Positions 23,544 to 55,398 of a stretch of 64,000 bases of DNA are shown here, one piece after another. The stretch comes from Saprospiraceae bacterium (GTDB lineage Bacteria; Bacteroidota; Bacteroidia; Chitinophagales; Saprospiraceae), in assembly GCA_022448945.1 (NCBI GenBank), contig JAKVCV010000012.1, positions 197,324 through 261,323 of the forward strand, written 5' to 3'. The stretch's first letter is position 1; the number at the start of each line of letters is the position of its first letter. The notes beneath the pieces were generated by a model. The model saw only the letters and a list, made by a program, of their open reading frames with translations. It did no database searches and was not told the origin of the DNA. The position numbers were made by a program, and so were the translations under genes.

Positions 23544-24179
23544 TTACAAACATATTTCTACCCCAGTCACATATTTGGAATTCTTTGTAGAACGAAATGG
23601 GAAAAACTGTGAAATACGATCAGCCTCATGTTCAATATCCTGTTCATATTTCACTTCTAGAATATTTACATTTGGCTCAAACTGTTGATGTTTTCTAAAC
23701 TGTCTGCAGCTTCTTAGTGACGCATATGCTAAGTTCCAATCTATTGTTATTCTAAACTTTTTATCTCTAGTTCCATAATAAGCACGTGTGTAAGAATTTT
23801 GAAGTACTGGCTGCAAATGAGCAAAAGTCCCACTTAAGTTATTTACCTGAACAGAAATGGGTTTTAAGTTATCAAATGAAAAGGAATCTACATTAAAAAT
23901 TGATTTTGAACCAACATTATTTCTTCTATGCTTAATTTCAAGCTTAGGTTTTCTTACAACAAGTGGATCTGCACCATACCAACGAACTCTATATTTATCT
24001 CTAAATGCAAGCCCCATAACATTTTCCTTGTAAGTAGTCAAAGCAGGTGTATCAAAATAAATATTATTAATTTGGCGGTCGGGAAATATCTTGTTTAAGC
24101 CTGCTGGATGCAATTTAATTGTTTGCAATATCACATCAAGGCTTACACCTTCAATTCTATATTTTCTTTCATAACGCAT
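23544..24179 (-). CDS. VTC-domain (polyphosphate polymerase-like) protein
   Basis: The 211-residue protein consists of one tunnel-fold domain of the CYTH-like VTC family. Marks are 'RYERKYRI' at the N-terminus, 'IYFDTP' near residue 44, 'FRDKYRVRWYG' near 60, 'KLEIKHR' near 78 and 'LEVKYEQ' near 174, giving the ring of Glu/Lys/Arg residues that binds nucleotide and metal. Eukaryotic Vtc4 makes polyphosphate from ATP with this domain. Bacterial versions are called polyphosphate polymerase domain proteins, but few have been tested. It follows the DUF4956 gene by 40 bp, a pairing I know from other bacteria that also carry CotH. Confidence 0.88.
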   Translation of the reverse strand: MRYERKYRIEGVSLDVILQTIKLHPAGLNKIFPDRQINNIYFDTPALTTYKENVMGLAFRDKYRVRWYGADPLVVRKPKLEIKHRRNNVGSKSIFNVDSFSFDNLKPISVQVNNLSGTFAHLQPVLQNSYTRAYYGTRDKKFRITIDWNLAYASLRSCRQFRKHQQFEPNVNILEVKYEQDIEHEADRISQFFPFRSTKNSKYVTGVEICL

Positions 24180-24219
24180 TTACATAAGTTACTCTTAGCT
24201 CTAGAAATAAAATTAGAGA

Positions 24220-24924
24220 TTAAACAATCAAGTCAGGCTGATCAATAATAGAGAGTTGTGTCTTTTCTGACAAAGCCAAAATGGCGTCTTTAGCTTCTTG
24301 AATTTTATGGACTGAAACCGTCTTACAAATATAACTTAAATCAAGGCCTTCAGGAATAGTATCCATACGTTTTAATTCTACAAGAGAGAAGGATTTATTA
24401 AGGACTTCGTCTATACTTACTATATTTGTCAAATCTGTAGTAATATTAACATAAAAACGATCTTGTTCTTTGAAAGAAGGACTATTACCCATTCGTTTAC
24501 TAAGATAAAGAAACAATAGTATAAAAGATACTACAATTATGGCGATAACAGGCTGATCTGCACCTGTAGCAAGACCAACACCAATGGTCAAAAATAAATA
24601 TGTCAATTCCTCTGGGTCTTTAATAGCAGCACGAAACCTAACAATAGACAATGCACCTACCAACCCTAGTGATAATGCTACTGAAGGTTTTACGATTACC
24701 ATAATCGACATTGTCGTCAAAGCCAAGGGTACGAAGTTAGCAGCAAATCGAGCACGATTTGAGACTGCATTCCCATAAGTGATATAAAATTTGGCAACGA
24801 ACATCGCCAATAGCGTACAAACAATAAGATTAATAACGAAACTAAGGGGATGTATAATATCACGAAGGTTGATAAAATATCCCCACAAATGATTTAAAAA
24901 TTCCTCCATAATTAGTTTTAACAA
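24220..24924 (-). CDS. DUF4956 integral membrane protein
   Basis: The 234-residue protein has four hydrophobic segments (about residues 24-44, 60-78, 82-98 and 118-142) and the strongly conserved 'GALSIVRFRAAIKDPEELTY' block near residue 88, followed by a cytoplasmic ferredoxin-like C-terminal domain (about 150-234). This is the pattern of DUF4956. Members are usually encoded beside a VTC-domain gene, as here, so it is likely a membrane partner of that enzyme, perhaps guiding its product. The function has not been shown. Confidence 0.88.
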   Translation of the reverse strand: MLKLIMEEFLNHLWGYFINLRDIIHPLSFVINLIVCTLLAMFVAKFYITYGNAVSNRARFAANFVPLALTTMSIMVIVKPSVALSLGLVGALSIVRFRAAIKDPEELTYLFLTIGVGLATGADQPVIAIIVVSFILLFLYLSKRMGNSPSFKEQDRFYVNITTDLTNIVSIDEVLNKSFSLVELKRMDTIPEGLDLSYICKTVSVHKIQEAKDAILALSEKTQLSIIDQPDLIV

Positions 24925-25079
24925 TCAATAAAATTAAGAAAATTGGAATCTAAGAAAGTTCAATGTAATAATTTTTTTGGTAATTGAAACACAATTGCAA
25001 ATTAGAAATACTAAAATGCTATATCATATTTTATATAATATTGATTCGTTATTCACAATTTCTTATATCATAATAATAG

Positions 25080-26324
25080 CTAGTGAATTATAAAACTACT
25101 GATTTCATTGTCAATTCTTATAAAATAAAAGCCAGGCTCCAAACCATTTAATGGAAGTCTAAATTCAATTTCATAACCAGCTACATTTAATTGAGAAATT
25201 AGCTGCATCGAAACTGAATATATAGACACATCTCTATACGCAGCTGTTGCAGAGTTATCAAATTGAACATTTAAGAAATCGGAAGCAGGATTTGGAAAGA
25301 TTTTAAATGGAACTTCATTATGCTGAATATCAATTAGAGAATTAGGCAAACTAGATATTTTTGAAACTCCATTACTTGTTACAACCCACACATTATCTTG
25401 GCTATCGATATCTAATTGTCTAATTACAGGACTTACAAGACCATCACTAACATCATAATCGATCCATTGAGTTCCATCATACATAGAAACACCTCCTACA
25501 GTAACCAAATAGTCAACATATATCCCTACCCAAATGCGTCCTTGTCCATCCATATCAATGTCTTCAACAGGATTCAATGTATCAGGGGGTGGCATTATAT
25601 ACATTCTTGTATGATGTTCAAAAACTTGGCCTGCATTATTAATCACTGAAACACCTGAAGCTGTGCCAACCCATTTATTATTTTGATTATCAATAACCAA
25701 AGAATTAGCTACGTTATGTAATAATCCCTGTGGAGTACTTATAGTAGTAAATGTAGTACCATCATATTTTACAACTCCTCCAAGAGCCGTTGCAAACCAT
25801 GCATCATTATTAGAATCAAAACCAATATGTTTGACTCCTCCAAAAGGCAGACCATCTGAGATACTATAAGCAGTAAACGTAGTACCATCATATTTCGTTA
25901 CACCACTAAATTCACCAAACCAAATAACCCCATTAATATCTTCTGCAATATGATTAACTCTATTATTTCCGAGACCATCAGCACTAGTAAAAGAAGTGAA
26001 AGAAGTTCCATTAAAAACACTAATCCCAAAATCCGTTCCTACCCATACCCTATCATCGCTAGCAACCAGGATTGTATTAATATTATTATCGATCAATCCG
26101 GGATAAGTATTTTGAGTAAAAGATGTCCAGGAAGTACCATCAAATTTTGAAATACCATTCTGTGTGCCAAACCAAACATTATCTGCTGTATCAATATCTA
26201 AACAAATGACATTATCATCAAGTAAACCATCACTTGTAGTATAATTAGTAAAGATCTGTGCGTAAACAGAATGTGTAATCAAAATTGAAAAGAGAAATCC
26301 AAAATAAAGGAATATTTGTTTCAT
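25080..26324 (-). CDS. Secreted Reg_prop beta-propeller protein with T9SS sorting domain
   Basis: Start 26324 (MKQIFLYFG) gives a proper signal peptide cut after 'VYAQ'; the frame extends to 26369 but adds a non-signal leader. The mature protein is built of about seven repeats of the two-component-regulator propeller type ('VWFGTQNGISKFDG' and variants) over residues 25-330, forming a beta-propeller. The last about 75 residues are a type A C-terminal domain ('FKIFPNPASDFLNV' to the end) that directs export by the T9SS. It is not joined to a kinase, so it is an extracellular binding propeller rather than a sensor. It lies between CotH and DUF4956. Confidence 0.9.
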   Translation of the reverse strand: MKQIFLYFGFLFSILITHSVYAQIFTNYTTSDGLLDDNVICLDIDTADNVWFGTQNGISKFDGTSWTSFTQNTYPGLIDNNINTILVASDDRVWVGTDFGISVFNGTSFTSFTSADGLGNNRVNHIAEDINGVIWFGEFSGVTKYDGTTFTAYSISDGLPFGGVKHIGFDSNNDAWFATALGGVVKYDGTTFTTISTPQGLLHNVANSLVIDNQNNKWVGTASGVSVINNAGQVFEHHTRMYIMPPPDTLNPVEDIDMDGQGRIWVGIYVDYLVTVGGVSMYDGTQWIDYDVSDGLVSPVIRQLDIDSQDNVWVVTSNGVSKISSLPNSLIDIQHNEVPFKIFPNPASDFLNVQFDNSATAAYRDVSIYSVSMQLISQLNVAGYEIEFRLPLNGLEPGFYFIRIDNEISSFIIH

Positions 26325-26393
26325 GTTATTTAATTTATTAATAAAGAAAGGTAATGAAATCAGGTTCAAAAAATTTCATACCATTTACTTTCT

Positions 26394-28664
26394 CTAATAT
26401 ATGACTAATTTTTTTGTAGTAACATTGTTTTGCATAGTGACCCTTACAAAATATAAACCTTGTGAATATTGTGATATATCAAAACTACCAGCTGTCGAAT
26501 TATCATTCGTGATATGTGATAACAGCAATTTGCCATTGATATCAAATAGCTCCAAAATACATGTTGCTTGGCCATATTCTAGTTCATAGTACACTTGATT
26601 AGCTGCTGGGTTAGGATATAAATTCAATTGAGGCTCCTGATCAATTTCTTCTATACTTGTATAATCATTATTTGCATTAAAAGTAGGAATTCTGGGTATA
26701 AAAGCACCAGTGCCATTTGGAAATCTAGCCATAGCAACATCTGTATTCTGAGGAGGATAATGAACAGAATCAATTATAGTAGTATCAGCATATGACAAAA
26801 CGATTTGTTCACCACCACTAGAAATCTTAAAATTTGCATGGAAAGGACCATCAAGGGTATCTGAGTCAGCCCAAATAATTAAATAACCTCCTGCGGGTAT
26901 TACAACAGAAGGTAATGCCCATTGATTCAAAAATGTATCTTTATCAGAAAGATACATCCCAAAAGTAGAAATATCATATGGAGAATTATTATAAAGTTCA
27001 ATCCAGTCATCATAATCACCACTTTCATCAGCTACAATAGAATTATTAGATGCCATAAATTCATTAATAACCAAATTTCCAGGTTGAATAGTTGACACAA
27101 TAGTATAATACTCATAGGCAGCTCTTTCGGGAGAAAACATTCCTGCAGAATCGTTTTCAGCATAAATATAATATTGTACTTCGTTGCCAATGCCTGACAA
27201 CTGAAAACCAAAAACACCATCTCCTGCAGAGCCATCATTTTGGGTTCCATCATCCAACATCATAACTTTTTCAAACAAAGCATTTTCACCATAACGATAT
27301 GCTAAAATAACAGTATCAGCATCAACTACTTCAGCGGTTATTGTTAAATTACCACCAATGGAAATCAATTGGGGCGAAAAATTAATATTTGAAATTGATG
27401 GAGCACCTTGAAAACCAGGATATGTATTAAGATAAATAGTCCTTGCATCCATCAAATCTGTAATCCCTGGATAATCTACAAGATCTGAAACAGTAACATT
27501 TAAATTGTCTATAAAATCATTATAAGAGTAAAATTTATTGGTATCATTTGCTACACATATATCAATTAACCCTTGCATATATTGTGCCCGTGCTTTGTAA
27601 CTTTGATTATTAAAGTTTTCTTGCATAATTGTTCTCATATGAGCAATATACATTTTACGATATCGATTGTTTGTAAACAAATTACGCATAAGAGGCCTTG
27701 GATATACAGAAACATTATTGTAATGCAATAAAGGGTCCATTTCTTTAGCCTCCTGAATATTAAACCCACTAAAATGAATAGATGCGTCAGCTAGACGATA
27801 TGAAGCAAAAGACATATTTAAATCCCAAATAATTGGATTAAACCGACCATTGTCATCCTGGTATAAATAATAATTCTGAGCATAACCTACATAACTATCA
27901 AAATTGATCAGACTATAGTTAATAGCATGCATCCAAAGGGTTCTATCAACATTAAGAATCTTTTCAATATTATTAGGTGAATTATTGAGCGTGTCAATCA
28001 AATTATACAAATCTGTCCATCCAAAATCAGATTTGATATCATAATACGGGTAATAAGAAGTTGAATCTGTACCAGGGCTATTGCCTAGATTAGCATTTTC
28101 TCCATATAAGTCCAAGTTGTCAGGATTACATTTAAAAAAAGTATTTTCCTTAGAACCAAAGTGTTTATTTAAAAAAGATTTATTTACAGATTCAACATTA
28201 GTATAAAGGCCCCAATAAACATCATTAATAAATACTTTTGCATAATTCGCTTTAGAAGCTGGCATGTATTTCCTACTAATTTCATAAGATAAAACCTCTC
28301 TTACAAAAGAAGGATCCTGAATAACATTACCCAATTTTATTTTTTCTATACCATTGTGATTTTGATTTCGAATATAATCCAATTTAATATTGAAAGGATT
28401 TTTTACCCTGGTAACACTAACGGAACTAAATCCCTTATACCTTATTCCAACACTATCATAAGCACTGCCATCTAAAATTACATTAGCTAGCATTCTATCT
28501 TCTTGACCAGCAACATAAAGGCTATCTAATATATGATCCCAATTTGATTGAGAAAAATAAATCTTGATTTCCCTTATGGAATCAACAGCAAAATAATCTG
28601 TCTGCGCCAGAAGACATTTTTGATTGCCTATAAAGAGAATAATAATCAAAAAAAGAAATTTCAT
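26394..28664 (-). CDS. Secreted CotH-kinase protein with lamin-tail domain and T9SS signal
   Basis: The 756-residue protein has a signal peptide (to about residue 20) and an N-terminal CotH kinase-like domain (about 30-400, with 'RYKGFSS', 'INDVYWGLYTNVE' and 'PIIWDLNMSFASY'). A beta-sandwich follows (about 420-520), then a lamin-tail domain (about 530-640, 'LVINEFMASN...DWIELYN'), and finally a T9SS type A sorting domain ('NLYPNPAANQVYYELEYG' to the end). CotH proteins are atypical kinases that phosphorylate secreted proteins. Here the enzyme is itself exported to the surface. CotH, VTC and DUF4956 genes recur together, which suggests a shared pathway. ATP would be scarce outside, so the phosphoryl donor is a question. 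Confidence 0.9.
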   Translation of the reverse strand: MKFLFLIIILFIGNQKCLLAQTDYFAVDSIREIKIYFSQSNWDHILDSLYVAGQEDRMLANVILDGSAYDSVGIRYKGFSSVSVTRVKNPFNIKLDYIRNQNHNGIEKIKLGNVIQDPSFVREVLSYEISRKYMPASKANYAKVFINDVYWGLYTNVESVNKSFLNKHFGSKENTFFKCNPDNLDLYGENANLGNSPGTDSTSYYPYYDIKSDFGWTDLYNLIDTLNNSPNNIEKILNVDRTLWMHAINYSLINFDSYVGYAQNYYLYQDDNGRFNPIIWDLNMSFASYRLADASIHFSGFNIQEAKEMDPLLHYNNVSVYPRPLMRNLFTNNRYRKMYIAHMRTIMQENFNNQSYKARAQYMQGLIDICVANDTNKFYSYNDFIDNLNVTVSDLVDYPGITDLMDARTIYLNTYPGFQGAPSISNINFSPQLISIGGNLTITAEVVDADTVILAYRYGENALFEKVMMLDDGTQNDGSAGDGVFGFQLSGIGNEVQYYIYAENDSAGMFSPERAAYEYYTIVSTIQPGNLVINEFMASNNSIVADESGDYDDWIELYNNSPYDISTFGMYLSDKDTFLNQWALPSVVIPAGGYLIIWADSDTLDGPFHANFKISSGGEQIVLSYADTTIIDSVHYPPQNTDVAMARFPNGTGAFIPRIPTFNANNDYTSIEEIDQEPQLNLYPNPAANQVYYELEYGQATCILELFDINGKLLLSHITNDNSTAGSFDISQYSQGLYFVRVTMQNNVTTKKLVIY

Positions 28665-28732
28665 TTTCTCAAAATCTAAGATTCAGAATCACTAAATTTT
28701 AATTCATGCAATCCGGAATTAGCACAAATCAA

Positions 28733-30271
28733 TTATTTAATTAGCGTTACTTTTTTATTAATAAGATTTGTGTCTCCCTGTTTGATTGAAACATAATACA
28801 TGCCTGAAGGATATGCAGACAAATCAAAACTACTTTGATTTAAATATTCAGATATTAATCTTCCATAAAGATCAAAAACAGCAATGCTCAAATTAATCTC
28901 AGAGACACCATCAAGTGTAACAACACCAGTTGATGGATTAGGATATAAAGTTATACCAGTATCATCAATTTCGTTTACGCCTGTAGGCAAACCACAAGGA
29001 TTTGCACCAAGTAAAACAGCCAAACCTGGATGATCACATTCATAACGGAATGCTTTTGCAGGATCATCTGGATATGCCCATACCTGAGTTCCATTAGAAT
29101 CAACTTCGTACATATATTGATTTGAAAGTGCAACAAAAGTATTGCCATTAGACATTCTATCTGAAGCTGATTGTCCACTTGAATTTGCTAAACAGTCGTG
29201 CCTCCAATCTTGTGTAGAAGGACTATAAGCTTGTCCAGACGTAAGCGTATAAGTATAACCATTAAGGGGTGGGTTTATAGCATCTACTACAGAGCTTCCA
29301 CCACTTCCTCCAGAATTATTAAAAAATTGAATATACCCTTCGTTTGGTCTACCTGGAAGGATCCATCTTGGATCATGGACAGCATTAGTAATTGTTTGTG
29401 TTCCTGATGCTCCGTAATTAGAAGGATTACCCCATCTATATAACAAATCACCTCCTTTTCCTGAATTTCCACCTGTATGCCCAGCGGCTTCAACTGTTGT
29501 AGTGCTATGATCTATAACATATATTTCGTGTGCGTGACGGGCACTAAATACAATTTGATCTAAAGTAGGATTATAATCAATACCATTTACATGAAACCAA
29601 TCACCATTGCCTCCACCCGGGCCTCCTCCTCCACCTCCTGGGCCGCCACCGCCGCCGCCAGAAGTTATTGCATTAATATCCATTAATTGTGGGTTATTGG
29701 CAACAACACCATAATTATCCTTTGATGGATCATGATCCTGAATCATATGGTCCCACATATGCCATTCCCATACAATTTGACCGCCAGTACCATTTTGCTG
29801 AACTTCAATAATGTGAGGTGGCCATTTATCAGAGGTTGCATTTGCATAACCAGCCTGTGTAAGTTCAGTAGGAGTTTTTACTTCCCATGCAATAAGTAAA
29901 ACATTACCATTAGGCATTGCACATATATCATGATGAGTACAGTATGTAGATGAAGAATAGACAAACTCCCATACTGTAGCTCCTGTAGGGTCAACTTCCT
30001 GTACTTTACCTGCTATAGCAGCGCCATTTAATGCATTACCATTATTCCTAACGCCACGAATAATATTACCATTATCTTTAAGGGCAACAGCATAATTTGA
30101 TGATCCAGAGCAAGACCATGTTTTTGCGATACTAGCATTTTCATCTATTAAATAGACCGTACTTGAACTTTGTTTAGCATATAAAGTATAACCATTAAAT
30201 GATTGAGCAAAAGATTCTATCGCTAAAAAAAATAGAGATATGAAAAACGTAATTTGAAAAATAATTTTCAT
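28733..30271 (-). CDS. Secreted arylsulfotransferase (ASST)-like protein with T9SS signal
   Basis: Start 30271 (MKIIFQITF) gives a signal peptide cut after 'SFAQ'; the longer frame to 30346 is not needed. Repeated propeller blades match the ASST family: 'GKVQEVDPTGATVWEF', 'HHDICAMPNGNVLLIAWE', 'VNGIDYNPTLDQIVFSAR', 'HEIYVIDHST' and 'LLYRWGNP'. Such proteins use a histidine to transfer sulfate between phenolic compounds, but many Bacteroidota members are untested. A polyglycine insert (about residues 206-220) interrupts the propeller before the 'WFHVNGIDYN' blade. The C-terminus is a T9SS type A domain ('TLYPNPSTGVVTLDGV' to the end). Confidence 0.87.
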   Translation of the reverse strand: MKIIFQITFFISLFFLAIESFAQSFNGYTLYAKQSSSTVYLIDENASIAKTWSCSGSSNYAVALKDNGNIIRGVRNNGNALNGAAIAGKVQEVDPTGATVWEFVYSSSTYCTHHDICAMPNGNVLLIAWEVKTPTELTQAGYANATSDKWPPHIIEVQQNGTGGQIVWEWHMWDHMIQDHDPSKDNYGVVANNPQLMDINAITSGGGGGGPGGGGGGPGGGNGDWFHVNGIDYNPTLDQIVFSARHAHEIYVIDHSTTTVEAAGHTGGNSGKGGDLLYRWGNPSNYGASGTQTITNAVHDPRWILPGRPNEGYIQFFNNSGGSGGSSVVDAINPPLNGYTYTLTSGQAYSPSTQDWRHDCLANSSGQSASDRMSNGNTFVALSNQYMYEVDSNGTQVWAYPDDPAKAFRYECDHPGLAVLLGANPCGLPTGVNEIDDTGITLYPNPSTGVVTLDGVSEINLSIAVFDLYGRLISEYLNQSSFDLSAYPSGMYYVSIKQGDTNLINKKVTLIK

Positions 30272-30699: not shown

Positions 30700-31524
30700 T
30701 TATTTTTGAATATGCACATCCATTTGTGGAAAAGGAATAGAAATGTTTTCACGATCAAAAGCTTTTTTTACATATTCCTGCATAAAATAAAAGGCATCCC
30801 AATAATCAGTTCCTTTTGCCCAAACCCAAACTGCAAGATCAACAGAACTATCATTTAGTTTTTCTACCAGGATTTGATGTTCCTGACCTTCTTGATGGAC
30901 AAGAAAAGGGCAACCCTTAATAACAGACCATAGTATTTCCCGGGCTTTATCAATATCATCATCATAACCAATGCAGAAAGTAAGATCGACACGAATTACT
31001 CCAGCACCAGTTATGTTTTCAACAATTTCACTTGTTAAAGTAGAATTAGGGATAACTATCAACCTTTGATGAATGGTTATTAATACTGTATTAAAAATTT
31101 GTATCTCCTTAACTTTTCCAATATAATTCCCAACACTTATCATATCTCCTGTACGAAAAGGCTTAAAAAACAAAATAAGAATCCCACTTGCAAAGTTACT
31201 TAAAGAGCCCTGTAGTGCAAGGCCAACAGCAAAACCAGCTGCCGCCAACATTGCTACAAAGGAAGTGGTTTCTATACCCAAAATATCAATAGCGCTAATT
31301 GATACTATTAATTTTAGAAGAAGACCAGTAAGGGTAATAATAAATGGCCTTAGGTCTTCATCAAAATTATTGGCACGCATCATTTTTTCGAGAAGAAGCA
31401 ATCCTTTATTTATAATTTTAAAGCCAAAATAAAAAACCACCAATCCTAAAAAGAATTTAGGAGCATACTCCATTAGCATATGAAGTATTTTATTTACTAG
31501 TTCATCTGTATTGATATCAAACAT
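30700..31524 (-). CDS. mscS: Small-conductance mechanosensitive channel (MscS family)
   Basis: The 274-residue length matches E. coli MscS (286). There are three membrane segments (about 18-38, 58-78 and 85-115). The third is the pore helix, with alternating Gly and Ala ('AAAGFAVGLALQGSLSNFASG'-type, residues about 95-115), followed by 'FKPFRTGDMI' and the cytoplasmic beta and alpha/beta domains ('IPNSTLTSEIVEN' near 160). The channel opens on membrane tension to release solutes during osmotic downshock. It is 102 bp downstream of the Wzz-like gene in the same direction. Confidence 0.95.
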   Translation of the reverse strand: MFDINTDELVNKILHMLMEYAPKFFLGLVVFYFGFKIINKGLLLLEKMMRANNFDEDLRPFIITLTGLLLKLIVSISAIDILGIETTSFVAMLAAAGFAVGLALQGSLSNFASGILILFFKPFRTGDMISVGNYIGKVKEIQIFNTVLITIHQRLIVIPNSTLTSEIVENITGAGVIRVDLTFCIGYDDDIDKAREILWSVIKGCPFLVHQEGQEHQILVEKLNDSSVDLAVWVWAKGTDYWDAFYFMQEYVKKAFDRENISIPFPQMDVHIQK

Positions 31525-31626: not shown

Positions 31627-32751
31627 TTAAACTAGTTCCTGAATTTCTTGGCTATCTAAATATTCTTGTTCTTTAATTTCATATTGGATATAATCTCGTA
31701 AAAACTTGCGACCTACTACAATAATTAAAACAAGTAAACCTCCTAAAATAAAACCAAAAATCATATGTAAAAATGGATTAGGCACTACAACCGCCAAAGG
31801 AAAAAGAGGAGGATCAATAACAGAAAAGGGAGGTGTTTGTTTTTGACTTTCATAAGCAATATACGCCGCATCTCTACTACTAAGAGCGAAAAAATACGAT
31901 TCTGTTGCTTTTTTAAGTTCAGTGGATAAATACTGAGTTTCTATTAATGTATTATTACGACCATCTGCTTCTGCACTGTTAGTATTAACATACTCTATAT
32001 ATTTAGCTTCTGCCTTACTTAATTTATCTCTAAGTTTCTTTGTTTGTTGCTCAGCCATATCAAAGAATCTTCGCTTTTGTTCAGTCGTTTTATCTTTGTA
32101 GTAAATTGATAATTCATTAAATAGAGCAGTTACCAATTCATAAGAGAAATCTTCAGAGGTAGATTCTACCTTTATAGTCATCATAGAACCTAAAGGATCA
32201 ATAATCAATTGATTTTTTACTATACTATTATGAATATACTTCAATAAATAATTTGATTTCCTATCATAGGGATCTACAGAATCTGTTTTAAAGTAAAAAT
32301 CTTGATCAGTAGGGTTCGTATAATAAAAAGTTCTTAAGTAATGGTTGACAATGAAATCTGAAACACCTGGATTGTCATTTTTTAATATTGTTCGATGAAA
32401 TAAAACTTTAAGAAAAATCTTTCTAGTAACAATTATCTGTTGCAATTCTTTAAGATCAGAAAGATAGTCATTGGAATAATTCAATTGAGTTCCCTGATCA
32501 AATAAGCTAGAGATACTATGGTGCTTTTCATTTATTATTTCATTAAATTTAAATGAAAAGTCGGCAGTATATAGAGTTGGAGTACTTGATTTTCTATAAT
32601 GCATATACTTTCCAAAAAGTAATGCAACAATCACAATCAACCAAGAATACTTTATTACTTCCATCAAGTAATCTTTGGCAATTGATAAAAGATCTCTAAT
32701 AGAAATGCTATATACTTCTTTACGAGAAGAATTGCCTTTAAACTGATCCAT
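31627..32751 (-). CDS. Wzz/PCP-family chain-length or export co-polymerase
   Basis: The 374-residue inner-membrane protein has transmembrane segments at about residues 34-50 and 326-350. Between them is a periplasmic alpha-rich domain with a long coiled coil (about 215-275), the plan of polysaccharide co-polymerases. No tyrosine kinase domain is fused, and the C-terminal tail is short. It starts 16 bp after the SLBB exporter gene, so the two form an export pair that sets polymer length and links the inner membrane to the outer membrane channel. Confidence 0.85.
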   Translation of the reverse strand: MDQFKGNSSRKEVYSISIRDLLSIAKDYLMEVIKYSWLIVIVALLFGKYMHYRKSSTPTLYTADFSFKFNEIINEKHHSISSLFDQGTQLNYSNDYLSDLKELQQIIVTRKIFLKVLFHRTILKNDNPGVSDFIVNHYLRTFYYTNPTDQDFYFKTDSVDPYDRKSNYLLKYIHNSIVKNQLIIDPLGSMMTIKVESTSEDFSYELVTALFNELSIYYKDKTTEQKRRFFDMAEQQTKKLRDKLSKAEAKYIEYVNTNSAEADGRNNTLIETQYLSTELKKATESYFFALSSRDAAYIAYESQKQTPPFSVIDPPLFPLAVVVPNPFLHMIFGFILGGLLVLIIVVGRKFLRDYIQYEIKEQEYLDSQEIQELV

Positions 32752-32767
32752 TATATTGCAGGTTTAA

Positions 32768-35212
32768 TTAAAGTGCTCTTATTAATGCATAAACAGTAAG
32801 TCCTGAAACAAAAATTGCAAATGTATCTTTTATAACAGCATACCAATTTATAGGTTTACGTTCTTTTTTTATCTTTCTTTCTTTAGTTCCAACATAAACC
32901 ATTGCACCCTTCTCTACTATAGGATATACTTTAAAAAACAATATATTTTTTGTTTTCTTGACAAGGCCATTAGCATAACGAACATATACCAAACGCTTAC
33001 GCCCTCCCAATTTTCTATCTATACCAGCACCATACTCATTAATATAAAAATTCGCCCTTTTACCTTCATGAAAAGGGACATTCACCTTAAGTGGGTTGTT
33101 TTTTTCAGTCTTAAATTGAGCTAACGAAATTTCTTTTTTTTCTATTTCTGTTTCAGCTTTTTCTATTTCCAACTCTAATTCTTTTTCCGCAATTTCAGCA
33201 CGTTCTTTTACAATAGGATGATTAATGCGGCCAGCAATAGATATTAAATCTTTTAATTTAGGTATTATAATAAGATCTCCATCACGAAGAACATAATTAA
33301 ATCTGGAATCAATTCCTTCCTTCTGTAATTTATCCAAATCCAACAGGACTAAACCTTCCCCTATCCGAATCAACTTTGTTCCCTTAAGAAAAGCAACATC
33401 CGTACATCCACCAGCCCGTTTAAGAATATCAATTACACGCTCATTTTCTTTAACAAGAGTATATACACCAGGCCATATGATTTCTCCCTTCAATCGAATA
33501 TTTTTAGGTTTTTCAAAATCCCTGGATGTTCTCACAAAAATCTGATCATAAGGTTCAAGCAAATAAGTATCTGCACCTTTAACTTCAAGATTGTCATTAT
33601 ATGATCCAATATCAAACTTTTTAATCACAATATAGGTTTCATTGCCATTTGTATCTAATGCCAAACGTGATATTTCAATATAACTGTTTGATGCTTCTCT
33701 TTTAATCCCATTTGCCAAATAAAGAACATCCATTAAAACCAAACTATCGCTATAATCATATACACCCTGATTACGAACAGCACCATATACCTTAACTTTA
33801 TAATCATCAATAAAGTCAGATTTATATTTTACCTCAATTTCATCAAATGGATTCAAAATTTGATTTTCTGGAGCAGTTGGATTATCAAGTATTTTGTGTA
33901 CGTTTACAGCAATATAATCTAAAGACAAATCTTCCCTTAAGCGTTTAATATAAATACGATCCATAATAGCAGAACGTATTACACCTGCTTTCATCAATAC
34001 ATCATAAACTGTAGTATTATCTACTAGCTCATAAGTTCCTGGAAGTTTAACAGCACCTTTAACAGTAATATAATTAACATAAGCTTGTTTTATAGGCGTA
34101 ATATTTATTCTATCTCCGTTCTTTAATTCAAAATTAATCTCTTGCCTTAGCAATTCAGTTAAATTTACATCAATAAGGGTTTCCTGATCATTTTCATACC
34201 GTAATATCTGAATATTTCTCCTGTATGCATCTGGACGTAGACCTCCAGCATAATCTATCAATTCAATGAGGTTTTCATCTTCAATTAATTCATAGAAAAA
34301 AGGGCGTTGAACAGCTCCCTGAATCTCAACAACTCGCTGAGCCAATGGTACATATATATAATCATTATTGAGTAGAAAAAATTCATCCGCAACATTTGGA
34401 TTATTCATAAATTTATATACATCCAATATCCTAGTTTTCTTTTCTGAAGAAACTACTTTTATTGAACGAACACTCCCTATCTGAGAAGGTCCGCCAGCAG
34501 CAACCAAAGCATTAAAAGCTGTATTTACAGCCGGAATTGTATAAGATCCTGGGTTAAAAATTTCACCAGTAATATTTATGGTCAAAGACCTGGAATAATT
34601 TAACTCTATTGAAATTTGTGAATTAATCATATTAACATGATTATTCAATCTTTCTTTAATAACATTTTTTGCTTCAGAAAATTTCATTTCCTTAATATAG
34701 AGACGTGGAATATGAAGTCCTTTTCTTGGATCAGTCAAATTAATAAAGCCATCTTCATCAATAGCTACACTAACACTATAATCTGTAGCGCCCCAAATCG
34801 TAATTGCTAATTCATCGCCTATACCAAGCAAATAACTATCAATCGCCTTTATATCTCTTGACCTGGTAAAAAGTGAAATACTTTGGTCTCTAAAAAATTG
34901 CTGCCCCCAGATTTTAGCTTCTGGAAGTTCCGATTGACGTTTATCGAACTTAATTTTACGTTGTTCATCCTCTCTATCTTCTGAATTCAGTTTTTCACCA
35001 TCTTCATTTATTTCATTTTCTTCTAAAAGAACAGAGCTATTCCCTTTCTTATCTTTAGCTTCAAACTTGTTATTAATTTTTTCAAGTTTTTTTGCAACAA
35101 TTGGATCTATCTCTGGAATAACTTCAGGAAAGTTAGGGATTTGTGCCCAACCAATTTGAGCGCAAAAGATCATTATAAAAACAAACATTAACTTTATGTA
35201 TTGAAATTTCAT
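32768..35212 (-). CDS. Polysaccharide export protein with multiple SLBB domains (Wza-like)
   Basis: The 814-residue exported protein has a signal peptide (to about residue 23, 'GWAQ') and an acidic/basic linker (about 40-95). A poly-export domain follows ('YLLGIGDELAITIWGATDYS' near 127), then about six SLBB repeats ('GAVKLPGTYELV', 'GAVRNQGVYDYS', 'GEIIWPGVYTLV' and others, about 210-650), a coiled coil (about 675-710) and one C-terminal membrane helix ('FAIFVSGLTVYALI'). This size and plan are usual for Bacteroidota Wza-like outer-membrane exporters. A separate promoter just upstream suggests it can be transcribed apart from the sugar-nucleotide genes. Confidence 0.92.
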   Translation of the reverse strand: MKFQYIKLMFVFIMIFCAQIGWAQIPNFPEVIPEIDPIVAKKLEKINNKFEAKDKKGNSSVLLEENEINEDGEKLNSEDREDEQRKIKFDKRQSELPEAKIWGQQFFRDQSISLFTRSRDIKAIDSYLLGIGDELAITIWGATDYSVSVAIDEDGFINLTDPRKGLHIPRLYIKEMKFSEAKNVIKERLNNHVNMINSQISIELNYSRSLTINITGEIFNPGSYTIPAVNTAFNALVAAGGPSQIGSVRSIKVVSSEKKTRILDVYKFMNNPNVADEFFLLNNDYIYVPLAQRVVEIQGAVQRPFFYELIEDENLIELIDYAGGLRPDAYRRNIQILRYENDQETLIDVNLTELLRQEINFELKNGDRINITPIKQAYVNYITVKGAVKLPGTYELVDNTTVYDVLMKAGVIRSAIMDRIYIKRLREDLSLDYIAVNVHKILDNPTAPENQILNPFDEIEVKYKSDFIDDYKVKVYGAVRNQGVYDYSDSLVLMDVLYLANGIKREASNSYIEISRLALDTNGNETYIVIKKFDIGSYNDNLEVKGADTYLLEPYDQIFVRTSRDFEKPKNIRLKGEIIWPGVYTLVKENERVIDILKRAGGCTDVAFLKGTKLIRIGEGLVLLDLDKLQKEGIDSRFNYVLRDGDLIIIPKLKDLISIAGRINHPIVKERAEIAEKELELEIEKAETEIEKKEISLAQFKTEKNNPLKVNVPFHEGKRANFYINEYGAGIDRKLGGRKRLVYVRYANGLVKKTKNILFFKVYPIVEKGAMVYVGTKERKIKKERKPINWYAVIKDTFAIFVSGLTVYALIRAL

Positions 35213-53949: not shown

Positions 53950-55398
53950 TTAATTGCCAACCGGCCCTTTTATAGTTAGCGTCTGATAATTACCATCAAC
54001 AATTCCCAAAAGTGTATTATTGTTACGTTTTATAGCTTTTCCAGCTTGACCACCAGAGGGAAAAACTGAAAGAGGTGGATCAGGAAAATTCTGATTAAAA
54101 ATACTAACATTTCCAACAAAAGGGATATTTATTGTAACATCTAAATTAAACGTCAGACTACCTTCCAGACCTTGCAACCCATAGTTGCCTCCATCCCCAC
54201 CAAAAACAGCAGGAGTAATTGTAAATTGAGCAACAGAAACAGTAAATGAAATAGGAGCCGTCAACACCCCTCCCGTTCCAGGAATAGCCAAAACACCACC
54301 AGTTGCATCAGTACCTACTTCATAGTAGCCAAATCCAGTACCAAGATTACCTCCAACACCGAATTGACATCCACCACCACCACCAGCACCAATACCTAAA
54401 TTAAAGTTACCTATAGGTGGAGGTATTGGTATTGTTGCTATAAAACCAACAGATCCACCACCACCACCACCACTATAAATACGTCCAGTATTTACTATAT
54501 GTGTGTGTGTTGTCAAGTTTATAGCATCTGCACCTGGTTCTCCTTCTCCTGATTGTCCTTGCAAACCAGCTCCAACTCCACCATTACCACCACTGGCCAA
54601 AAGAAAACCTTCATTCCATATACCTACCCTAGATTGTGTGTGTAAATTACCTGTATTGTATACAGGAGTACCTGAATTGCTATTAGTCAATTCTAGTCCC
54701 GGAGGAATACGAAGAACAACGCAAACAGGTGTATTTGTAGGCAAACTATTTGCAGCTTGTAAATCATAATCCACTTGTGGACTAATGAGATTTACTTCTA
54801 TACAGGGCTCAACAGTTACAACATAAACCTGACTTTTAATTGTTCCATCACATCCAGCCTGAACTACTATTGGGTAAGTTCCCGCTGGCGCAAAAATATC
54901 TGCTGTAACTTTAAGAGATACTGTATCTGTTCCTGTTACTACTGAACTATCAATTATAACATTAATACCATCAGGCAAATTCGCAATCACATAAATACCA
55001 ATTGAAGAAACTCCATTGATTTGATTAACAAATAATCGTGTAGAATCTTCATTAGCAACTATCCTATCGATTGTTCCCGATTGATTTTCAATAAAAAAAT
55101 CAAATACACATTCATCACAACTTTGTTGCCAAGTAGGCATCCAACATCTTCCTGTGAAATATTGTAATGTACTATCTTCGACATTAAATATCGTCAATCC
55201 ATACTTAGGCTCAAAAATACTATCACGTTGTTGTGTAGTCATTCTTGGAGGTAAAAAGCCCTTTTCTGTTGACTCAAGATGTAAAATTGCAGAAGTATCT
55301 GGTTGTAGAATATTAATCCCAACCTGTGCTTGCATATAATTAATATAAGCAAAGAAGCAGATTACTAAAAGAAGAAAACTATTATTAAATAATTTCAT
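53950..55398 (-). CDS. Secreted glycine-rich, phage-tail-fibre-like protein
   Basis: The 482-residue protein has a signal peptide (to about residue 24, 'MQAQ'). The next part, 'VGINILQPDTSAILHLESTE' and 'GFLPPRMTTQQRDSI' (about 26-80), is the N-terminal module widely seen in Bacteroidota tail-fibre-like secreted proteins. A beta-domain follows (about 85-250). From about 250 to 450 there are many poly-Gly stretches ('YSGGGGGGS', 'GIGAGGGGG') between 'IVNTGRI'-type strands, as in phage adhesins built of polyglycine-II helices. It ends 'LTIKGPVGN'. No T9SS domain is present. It could be a surface adhesin; the ligand is unknown. Confidence 0.72.
   Translation of the reverse strand: MKLFNNSFLLLVICFFAYINYMQAQVGINILQPDTSAILHLESTEKGFLPPRMTTQQRDSIFEPKYGLTIFNVEDSTLQYFTGRCWMPTWQQSCDECVFDFFIENQSGTIDRIVANEDSTRLFVNQINGVSSIGIYVIANLPDGINVIIDSSVVTGTDTVSLKVTADIFAPAGTYPIVVQAGCDGTIKSQVYVVTVEPCIEVNLISPQVDYDLQAANSLPTNTPVCVVLRIPPGLELTNSNSGTPVYNTGNLHTQSRVGIWNEGFLLASGGNGGVGAGLQGQSGEGEPGADAINLTTHTHIVNTGRIYSGGGGGGSVGFIATIPIPPPIGNFNLGIGAGGGGGCQFGVGGNLGTGFGYYEVGTDATGGVLAIPGTGGVLTAPISFTVSVAQFTITPAVFGGDGGNYGLQGLEGSLTFNLDVTINIPFVGNVSIFNQNFPDPPLSVFPSGGQAGKAIKRNNNTLLGIVDGNYQTLTIKGPVGN

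Follow-up and report, generated by a model that had tools for sequence, protein, structure and literature searches.

The five-gene block and its products

The window analysed here is a stretch of 64,000 nucleotides (contig JAKVCV010000012.1, positions 197,324 to 261,323) from an Aureispira (Saprospiraceae) genome, and its positions 23544-30271 hold five co-directional genes, all on the minus strand, in which a putative polyphosphate polymerase and its membrane partner stand next to three secreted proteins. By coordinate, these encode a VTC-domain protein of 211 amino acids (23544..24179; Pfam VTC 2.4e-28), predicted to act as a polyphosphate polymerase in the cytoplasm and to have the tunnel (TTM/CYTH) fold; a DUF4956 membrane protein of 229 amino acids from its ATG start (24220..24909; Pfam 2.3e-15); a secreted Reg_prop propeller with seven repeats and a sorting tail of the type IX secretion system (T9SS) (25080..26324 from its ATG start; Reg_prop 1.5e-19, Por_Secre_tail 9.2e-11); a secreted CotH kinase with a lamin-tail domain (LTD) and a T9SS tail (26394..28664; CotH 3.9e-42, LTD 1.8e-13, tail 9.5e-14); and a secreted arylsulfotransferase-like protein (ASST) with a T9SS tail (28733..30271; Arylsulfotrans 5.3e-24). 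Judged against gathering cut-offs, the Pfam profile matches confirmed the block as an earlier sequence-only reading of this DNA had described it, including its three T9SS-sorted proteins, in all of which Por_Secre_tail exceeded the cut-off of 27 (42.3, 51.9 and 47.4 bits). The intergenic gaps of the listed open reading frames are 40, 155, 24 and 68 bp, and the neighbouring MscS gene lies 353 bp away; that reading had put them at 40-155 bp, of which the upper end stands while the range begins at 24 bp. Using the ATG starts taken from the sequence (DUF4956 24909, propeller 26324, ASST 30271), the propeller gene is 170 bp from DUF4956 and 69 bp from CotH.

The VTC domain scored 99.8 bits (cut-off 23) and the protein gave a profile match of 1.9e-18 to Vtc4 (3g3q), with R64, R66, E81, K83, K92, R132, R143, E175, K177 and K202 invariant in our own alignments and matched in the Vtc4 alignment; the 13 best PDB structural matches of its AlphaFold2 model (pLDDT 93.8) were VTC chains. 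By profile, alignment and model, the window VTC protein is thus Vtc4-like in sequence, residues and predicted fold. That it is a triphosphatase or some other TTM enzyme with no polymerase activity appears quite improbable: weaker structural matches extend to tripolyphosphatases and class IV cyclases, and the invariant R60 and K62 lack a counterpart in the Vtc4 alignment, but 13 of 13 best matches going to VTC chains, and the sharing of most conserved basic and acidic positions with Vtc4, speak for a polymerase. The DUF4956 protein (57.2 bits, cut-off 30.6; below the MgtC family cut-off with 19.6 versus 31.4 bits) was modelled by AlphaFold2 (pLDDT 88.7) as bundled long helices, of which five are of membrane length and are read as predicted membrane helices, with a C-terminal ferredoxin/PII-like domain. 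All the structural matches listed fell on this C-terminal domain, the best being the PII-like SbtB (E 2.7e-3, none at or below 1e-3), and a PDB sequence search with DUF4956 returned nothing convincing (best E 0.3).

The domains of the secreted trio likewise exceeded their cut-offs (Reg_prop 68 bits against 20.4, CotH 145.4 against 23.8, LTD 51.3 against 34.3, Arylsulfotrans 85.4 against 24.2). Seven repeats and a signal peptide were recognised by eye in the propeller, and its assignment as PorZ was rejected on a weak similarity of 39.1 bits, the NCBIfam cut-off being 260. The window ASST was aligned to AssT (3elq) and to the sulfotransferase 9kf6; its H227, N229, R245 and H299 correspond to H356, N358, R374 and H436 of 3elq, a His/Asn/Arg/His set that we take to be catalytic. 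H114, H227, N229, H299 and N319 were kept in 43 of 43 ASSTs and H113 in 42, while R245, kept in all eight ASST rows of the trio, has given way to other residues in the five further named rows. A glycine-rich loop with Gly/Pro runs lies within the window ASST (29660-29604), as in its G005 and G011 orthologues (G and L numbers are our handles for genomes and loci). The window CotH gave a profile match of 3.6e-27 to 5jd9, and its D256, N264 and D281 align to the catalytic Asp, the Asn and the metal-binding Asp of that structure, whose residue roles and D228/D251 numbering are assumed here; together with W280 they were kept in 12 of the 13 CotH rows compared, the remaining one, L195, having another domain order and not aligning. 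Loss of catalytic residues, which would have counted against a joint system, was therefore not what the alignments returned, those of VTC, CotH and ASST all being kept. The ATP clamp of CotH is formed by Tyr142 and Trp245 according to the accessible part of PMC12189002, and the window protein keeps the clamp Trp (W280) with an aromatic residue, F176 or F177, near the Tyr position.

A genus-wide pair and a joined trio in Aureispira

On the same strand, the block lies directly behind a polysaccharide-export run consisting of an SLBB/Poly_export (Wza-like) exopolysaccharide export protein (32768..35212; SLBB 3.2e-31, Poly_export 3.1e-10), a Wzc-like protein named by its position (31627..32751; no Pfam match) and an MscS-type channel (30700..31524; Pfam MS_channel_2nd), all encoded on the minus strand; beyond the block follow a papain-type peptidase on the opposite strand and a CHAT-TPR gene. 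Of the nine genus genomes, eight allowed the site to be read (that of the window, G001-G005, G007 and G008), with G006 yielding its other VTC locus only. SLBB, Wzc-like homologues and a VTC/DUF4956 pair were found there in 8/8, MscS in 7/8 (not G002) and the CHAT gene in 7/8 (none seen in G007), with two extra genes separating Wzc from MscS in G004 and G008. The trio was present at the site only in the window and in G005 (2/8), whose five genes keep the order of the window with identities of 72, 72 and 67% for the trio. A third genome, G007, bears a decayed CotH remnant with stops between MscS and DUF4956 (L044 11012-12220), beside a propeller remnant recognised by eye. Since the pair of G001, G004 and G008 belongs to another VTC lineage, with its order reversed, the site holds a VTC-DUF4956 pair across two lineages. 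Thus, VTC-DUF4956 is a genus-wide module behind the polysaccharide-export run, and the trio is a second module joined there.

L034, L039 and L046, compared with window positions 23544-24924, present one genomic site with VTC/DUF4956 pairs of two lineages. A second locus of DUF4956, VTC and a CotH of about 974 amino acids occurs in eight of the nine genus genomes (the CotH of G007 being cut by a contig end); that of the window genome (G000:C7, L032 6137-16341) reads DUF4956, CotH, VTC, CotH, CotH, with T9SS tails absent. Elsewhere in the window, positions 53950-55398 encode a 482-amino-acid protein with no Pfam match at E 0.05.

The trio outside the genus

An ASST family search over 248 genomes, with six candidates scored per genome, turned up, among the matches listed, at least nine close orthologues beyond Aureispira, with E values of 2.6e-128 or better. 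The ASST-CotH-LTD-Reg_prop order and strand were kept in six of them (G011, G102, G272, G121, G119 and G198); a contig edge lies beside the ASST in G263 and G127, and another tail protein adjoins it in G211. No VTC gene was present in the stretch read around any of the six trios, the contig of G198 stopping just past the propeller. At the genome level, VTC was detected in seven and DUF4956 in all nine of the orthologue genomes. The trio is hence also a module in its own right.

In G272 the trio continues, over gaps of 16 and 1 bp, into a DUF4956 gene, an HlyD-like adaptor gene (PF13437 23.4 bits, cut-off 22.2) and a gene for an OEP-like protein (a weak match, E 0.015). This DUF4956 is of another class, with 27% identity to that of the window. 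An orthologous DUF4956-HlyD-OEP-like set lies elsewhere in the G102 genome than its trio (identities 47, 43 and 30%), the own Pfam match of its third gene not being meaningful. Such a set adjoins a Rep3 replication initiator gene in L343 (2674-7337), where it may be plasmid-borne.

Envelope-spanning parts beside VTC-DUF4956 across the phylum

Of 198 Bacteroidota genomes that were at least 90% complete, 37 (the window genome counted) had a VTC. They hold 43 VTC places, of which 39 were newly fetched (both places of the window genome, that of G035 and a G296 fragment were left out); 38 of these 39, and 52 of 54 loci from relatives, matched the VTC model, the others being dropped before counting. 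Neighbours were labelled with hidden Markov models built from few seeds, with Pfam confirmation on example loci; open reading frames were called mechanically, and contig breaks can hide neighbours. In the 38 phylum loci, the co-directional runs with VTC contained DUF4956 in 37, an HlyD-like adaptor in 15, a DUF2490 barrel in 12, CotH in 12 and ASST in three, with additional adaptors recognised by Pfam alone in L320 and L323. In the 52 loci of relatives the corresponding counts were DUF4956 43, CotH 18, DUF2490 10, adaptor five and ASST one, the last being G005. An adaptor or a DUF2490 barrel thus stood beside VTC-DUF4956 in 27 of the 38 phylum loci. Over 3,090 genes of 214 loci, 20 of 27 adaptor and 21 of 23 barrel matches adjoined VTC or DUF4956, figures that come with no independent control, the models being seeded from VTC-adjacent proteins and the loci mostly centred on VTC or DUF4956. 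The TolC model, built from one seed, found itself alone, and TolC is under-counted.

The single runs illustrate the company that the pair keeps. L317 reads CotH-LTD, ASST, BNR propeller, HlyD-like adaptor (below its Pfam cut-off with 19.5 of 30 bits), VTC and DUF4956, with gaps of -4, 3, 43, 1 and -4, and holds the sole ASST found in its genome; L329 reads VTC, DUF4956, DUF2490, ASST, an X25-type tail protein and CotH-LTD; L325 reads DUF2490, CotH, VTC, DUF4956, a 145-amino-acid protein and ASST; L323 reads CotH, DUF4956, HlyD, OEP, VTC and LTD (gaps 123, 1, 2, -26 and -26), and L080 HlyD, VTC, DUF4956 and TolC. That VTC-DUF4956 is often accompanied by envelope-spanning parts is a new observation of this analysis.

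Two other settings were seen. L264 (4915-19100) holds VTC, DUF4956 and two CotHs within a polysaccharide cluster bearing MBOAT, Wzy_C and glycosyltransferase genes (Pfam), to which L266, L275, L276 and L281 are partly similar. A protein of some 299 amino acids neighbours DUF4956 and CotH in a cluster of 12 loci, L055 (3765-4664) among them; the one that was scanned bears a CYTH (tunnel) domain.

Recurrence of ASST beside VTC

Leaving the window genome aside, the 36 VTC genomes of the phylum sample hold 14 ASST genes, spread over eight genomes, and three of the 14 lie within 5 kb of VTC where 0.043 would be expected (P 1.3e-5, a simple Poisson estimate from few events, as are all proximity P values here). 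The three genomes, G293, G465 and G199, belong to three families, G199 to the window's own. Recurrence of propeller and ASST genes beside VTC/CotH was a check that the sequence-only reading had proposed, and it was borne out for ASST with CotH, which adjoin VTC/DUF4956 in these three genomes; a propeller recurred once, in L317, and is of the other, BNR type, with a T9SS-type tail at 26.8 bits against a cut-off of 27. The pairing of VTC with ASST is thus no one-off.

A tree of 43 ASSTs united those of the eight trios with the ASSTs of L194, L329 and L317 in one clade (100/100), outside of which fell L325, L195 and 30 other ASSTs, the latter being the first over the score limit and no random draw. 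L317, L329 and L325 had been found via VTC, which biases their placement in this tree, and the 5-kb count is the fairer measure. The L194 ASST stands beside CotH-LTD with no VTC in the stretch read, and that of L195 beside a CotH with LTD in front. In a VTC tree of 36 hand-picked rows, which carried a long-branch warning, a DUF2490-linked group including locus A of G001, G004 and G008 was separated by starred branches from the group of the window and locus B, and the HlyD-linked rows came together at 88/77 only. ASST neighbours occur in three VTC groups, namely the DUF2490-linked (L329, L325), the HlyD-linked (L317) and the window's.

CotH types that accompany VTC

In relatives, the CotH-bearing loci number 18; 17 of them encode a membrane-type CotH that lacks a T9SS tail and has His where the catalytic Asp would be, and the exception is G005. 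The idea that a VTC-linked CotH is always of this type was rejected on the phylum sample, where the His type occurs in one of 12 CotH-bearing loci (L330), a CotH without LTD in five, and a T9SS-tailed CotH-LTD within the VTC run in six (L308, L309, L316, L317, L318 and L329); four such proteins, plus that of L317, were confirmed by Pfam. The L316 copy beside an adaptor departs from the standard residue set, and those of L308 and L318 do so less. The known linkage of VTC, DUF4956 and CotH, to which the sequence-only reading had appealed, therefore extends to the T9SS-sorted form in half of the phylum loci with CotH, whereas among relatives it is nearly always another CotH that is linked. Of 89 membrane-type CotHs 60 were aligned, and of 41 others 39; His replaced the catalytic Asp in 59 of the 60, and Asp was kept in 37 of the 39. 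The window CotH, with its Asp and T9SS tail and with 12-15% identity, lies outside the membrane-type subfamily. For membrane-type CotHs linked to DUF4956/VTC (e.g. L032 6814-9735), the His possibly reflects a different phosphotransfer chemistry.

Two joined modules as the tentative explanation

Gene content, recurrence, lineage pattern, residue conservation and predicted folds together lead us to a best explanation that we hold tentatively, a little short of even confidence, namely that two modules have been joined, of which VTC-DUF4956 would make and export polyphosphate and the T9SS trio would phosphorylate and sulfate a surface target. VTC would polymerise phosphate from ATP at the cytoplasmic face, and DUF4956 would be the inner-membrane partner that lets the chain out, by analogy to the yeast VTC complex. 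The onward path in related runs might be formed by the HlyD-like adaptor, the DUF2490 barrel and sometimes TolC; in Aureispira the genes next to the pair encode no such path, and our guess falls on the adjoining Wza-like export run. T9SS would deliver the CotH-LTD kinase, the arylsulfotransferase and the propeller to the outside, where CotH and ASST might phosphorylate and sulfate a surface protein or a matrix polymer, with the propeller holding or recognising the target; that the sulfotransferase acts on the same target as CotH is a guess, here as in the sequence-only reading. The adaptor and barrel company of VTC-DUF4956 fits a scheme in which polyphosphate is synthesised within the cell and passed out to where the secreted enzymes act, and the pair itself resembles the inner section of a route across the envelope. 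A bolder form, possible though in our view less likely than not, would have VTC-DUF4956 make and translocate polyphosphate at the inner membrane as part of an undescribed class of envelope-spanning exporter, with an HlyD-like adaptor and a TolC or DUF2490 barrel, while the T9SS-sorted CotH-LTD and a dedicated ASST clade modify a common surface target.

Several results weigh against the joined-module explanation. In relatives outside the genus, none of the 108 ASST genes of VTC genomes lies near VTC (expected 0.28, the count being read off tables), pooling the samples without the genus gives a P of 0.0044 instead of 1e-5, and among the 80 nearest named DUF4956 loci an ASST is found in the run of L207 (that is, G005) only and on the opposite strand in L212. 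Adaptors and barrels are rarer in relatives (15 of 52 loci), and a Pfam scan of ten genes around the window VTC-DUF4956 found no adaptor or outer-membrane channel gene. The trio occurs without an adjacent VTC in at least six other Saprospiraceae genera, which qualifies the sequence-only reading; in G272 and G102 (86% and 96% complete) no VTC was detected at all. The putative conduit role of DUF4956 is read from predicted topology and neighbourhood, and our searches of the open-access literature listed no tested bacterial VTC. A separate promoter may lie in the 155-170 bp gap before DUF4956, which leaves co-transcription of the five genes a supposition; the promoter and terminator scan gave no argument for one transcript (promoter-like sites 35 versus 42.9 in shuffles, terminator-like 2 versus 3.5).

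Some of these results are what chance neighbourhood would produce, in that an independent T9SS trio would have come to lie next to DUF4956, on its MscS side, in a single Aureispira lineage while VTC-DUF4956 serves otherwise, for example the polysaccharide run. Besides the VTC-less trios and the 0/108 count, the presence of the trio at only two of eight genus sites, with a decayed remnant at a third, suits such a landing, which we nevertheless regard as improbable, given ASST and CotH in VTC runs of three genomes of three families, CotH-LTD in six VTC runs, and a trio that joins a DUF4956 of another class in G272. A reading of the trio as mere chance was dropped because the phylum sample showed ASST and CotH in VTC runs, and the functional link of the joined modules is now better evidenced than in the sequence-only reading. 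That reading had gone further, proposing exported polyphosphate as the phosphoryl donor of the surface CotH kinase, which we now consider very improbable. ATP is scarce outside cells, runs do combine polymerase, envelope-spanning parts and CotH (six times the T9SS-type CotH-LTD), and the His of membrane-type CotHs suggests that their chemistry may differ; the window CotH, by contrast, keeps an ATP-type site (D256, N264, W280 and D281), and two trio genomes have no detected VTC, which leaves the donor idea unsupported.

Unlikely, too, is a role in matrix decoration, in which VTC-DUF4956-CotH modules would belong to exopolysaccharide machines as accessories; here CotH and ASST would put phosphate and sulfate on the polymer of the Wza/Wzc run, and VTC-DUF4956 would supply or sense phosphate with no chain export. 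The linkage of VTC-DUF4956 to the SLBB-Wzc run in all eight genus genomes read, the retention of a pair at the site despite the differing lineage, and the Wzy_C, MBOAT and glycosyltransferase genes of L264 agree with it, as does the finding, from the accessible part of PMC7112168, that Gram-positive Pel genes are adjoined by CotH, a polyphosphate polymerase and DUF4956. Against it stand the 27 of 38 phylum VTC runs with an adaptor or barrel.

The runs described here bear on the way in which polyphosphate reaches the outside of bacterial cells and on what drives phosphorylation at that place, and they name candidate parts of a whole route, from polymerase and inner-membrane partner through adaptor and outer-membrane channel to surface enzymes. 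If the proposal is true, DUF4956 and DUF2490 would gain a function, secreted kinases and sulfotransferases would be tied into one system, and the DUF4956-HlyD-OEP-like sets of G272 and G102, with no detected VTC, would mark DUF4956 as the conduit proper.

Comparison with known systems

In searches of the open-access literature that paired VTC or polyphosphate polymerase with HlyD, CotH, DUF2490 or arylsulfotransferase, or that combined arylsulfotransferase, T9SS and CotH, the papers listed described none of these combinations. DUF4956 and DUF2490 are listed as neighbours (BT3498-BT3499) in Bacteroides thetaiotaomicron in the accessible part of PMC10434189. The NELoc-2 locus of Clostridium perfringens has VTC-domain and CotH genes, and the gene beside VTC is called a tubulin/FtsZ GTPase in the part of PMC2879425 available; we guess that it is a DUF4956 gene. 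A zetaproteobacterial stalk cluster was rejected as a parallel, the accessible text mentioning CotH and no VTC. The Gram-positive cassettes unite the same CotH, polymerase and DUF4956 families as the window, and in the available text of PMC7112168 and PMC2879425 no T9SS tail, ASST, propeller, adaptor or outer-membrane part is named; in the window the propeller gene separates CotH from DUF4956.

The yeast VTC complex (Vtc4/Vtc3/Vtc1) resembles the window pair in its tunnel-domain polymerase, with most basic and acidic residues in common, and in the presence of a membrane partner, and in yeast polyphosphate synthesis is coupled to translocation (PMC10657179, accessible part). It differs in that the window VTC, with 211 amino acids, has no room for SPX or membrane segments, that the window DUF4956 finds no PDB sequence match and bears a PII/ferredoxin-like domain, and that a bacterial envelope takes the place of the vacuole. 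The Bacillus spore-coat kinase CotH (5jd9) shares the kinase core and active-site residues with the window CotH, which adds an LTD and a T9SS tail and would act at a Gram-negative cell surface. Four active-site residues are common to Escherichia coli arylsulfate sulfotransferase AssT (3elq) and the window ASST, which is distant (profile E 1.1e-7), T9SS-sorted and provided with a Gly-rich loop. As for HlyD-TolC tripartite exporters, no part of the tripartite kind adjoins the window pair, but related VTC runs share with them HlyD-like adaptors and sometimes OEP/TolC proteins, and there the inner-membrane part would be VTC-DUF4956 rather than an ABC, MFS or RND pump.

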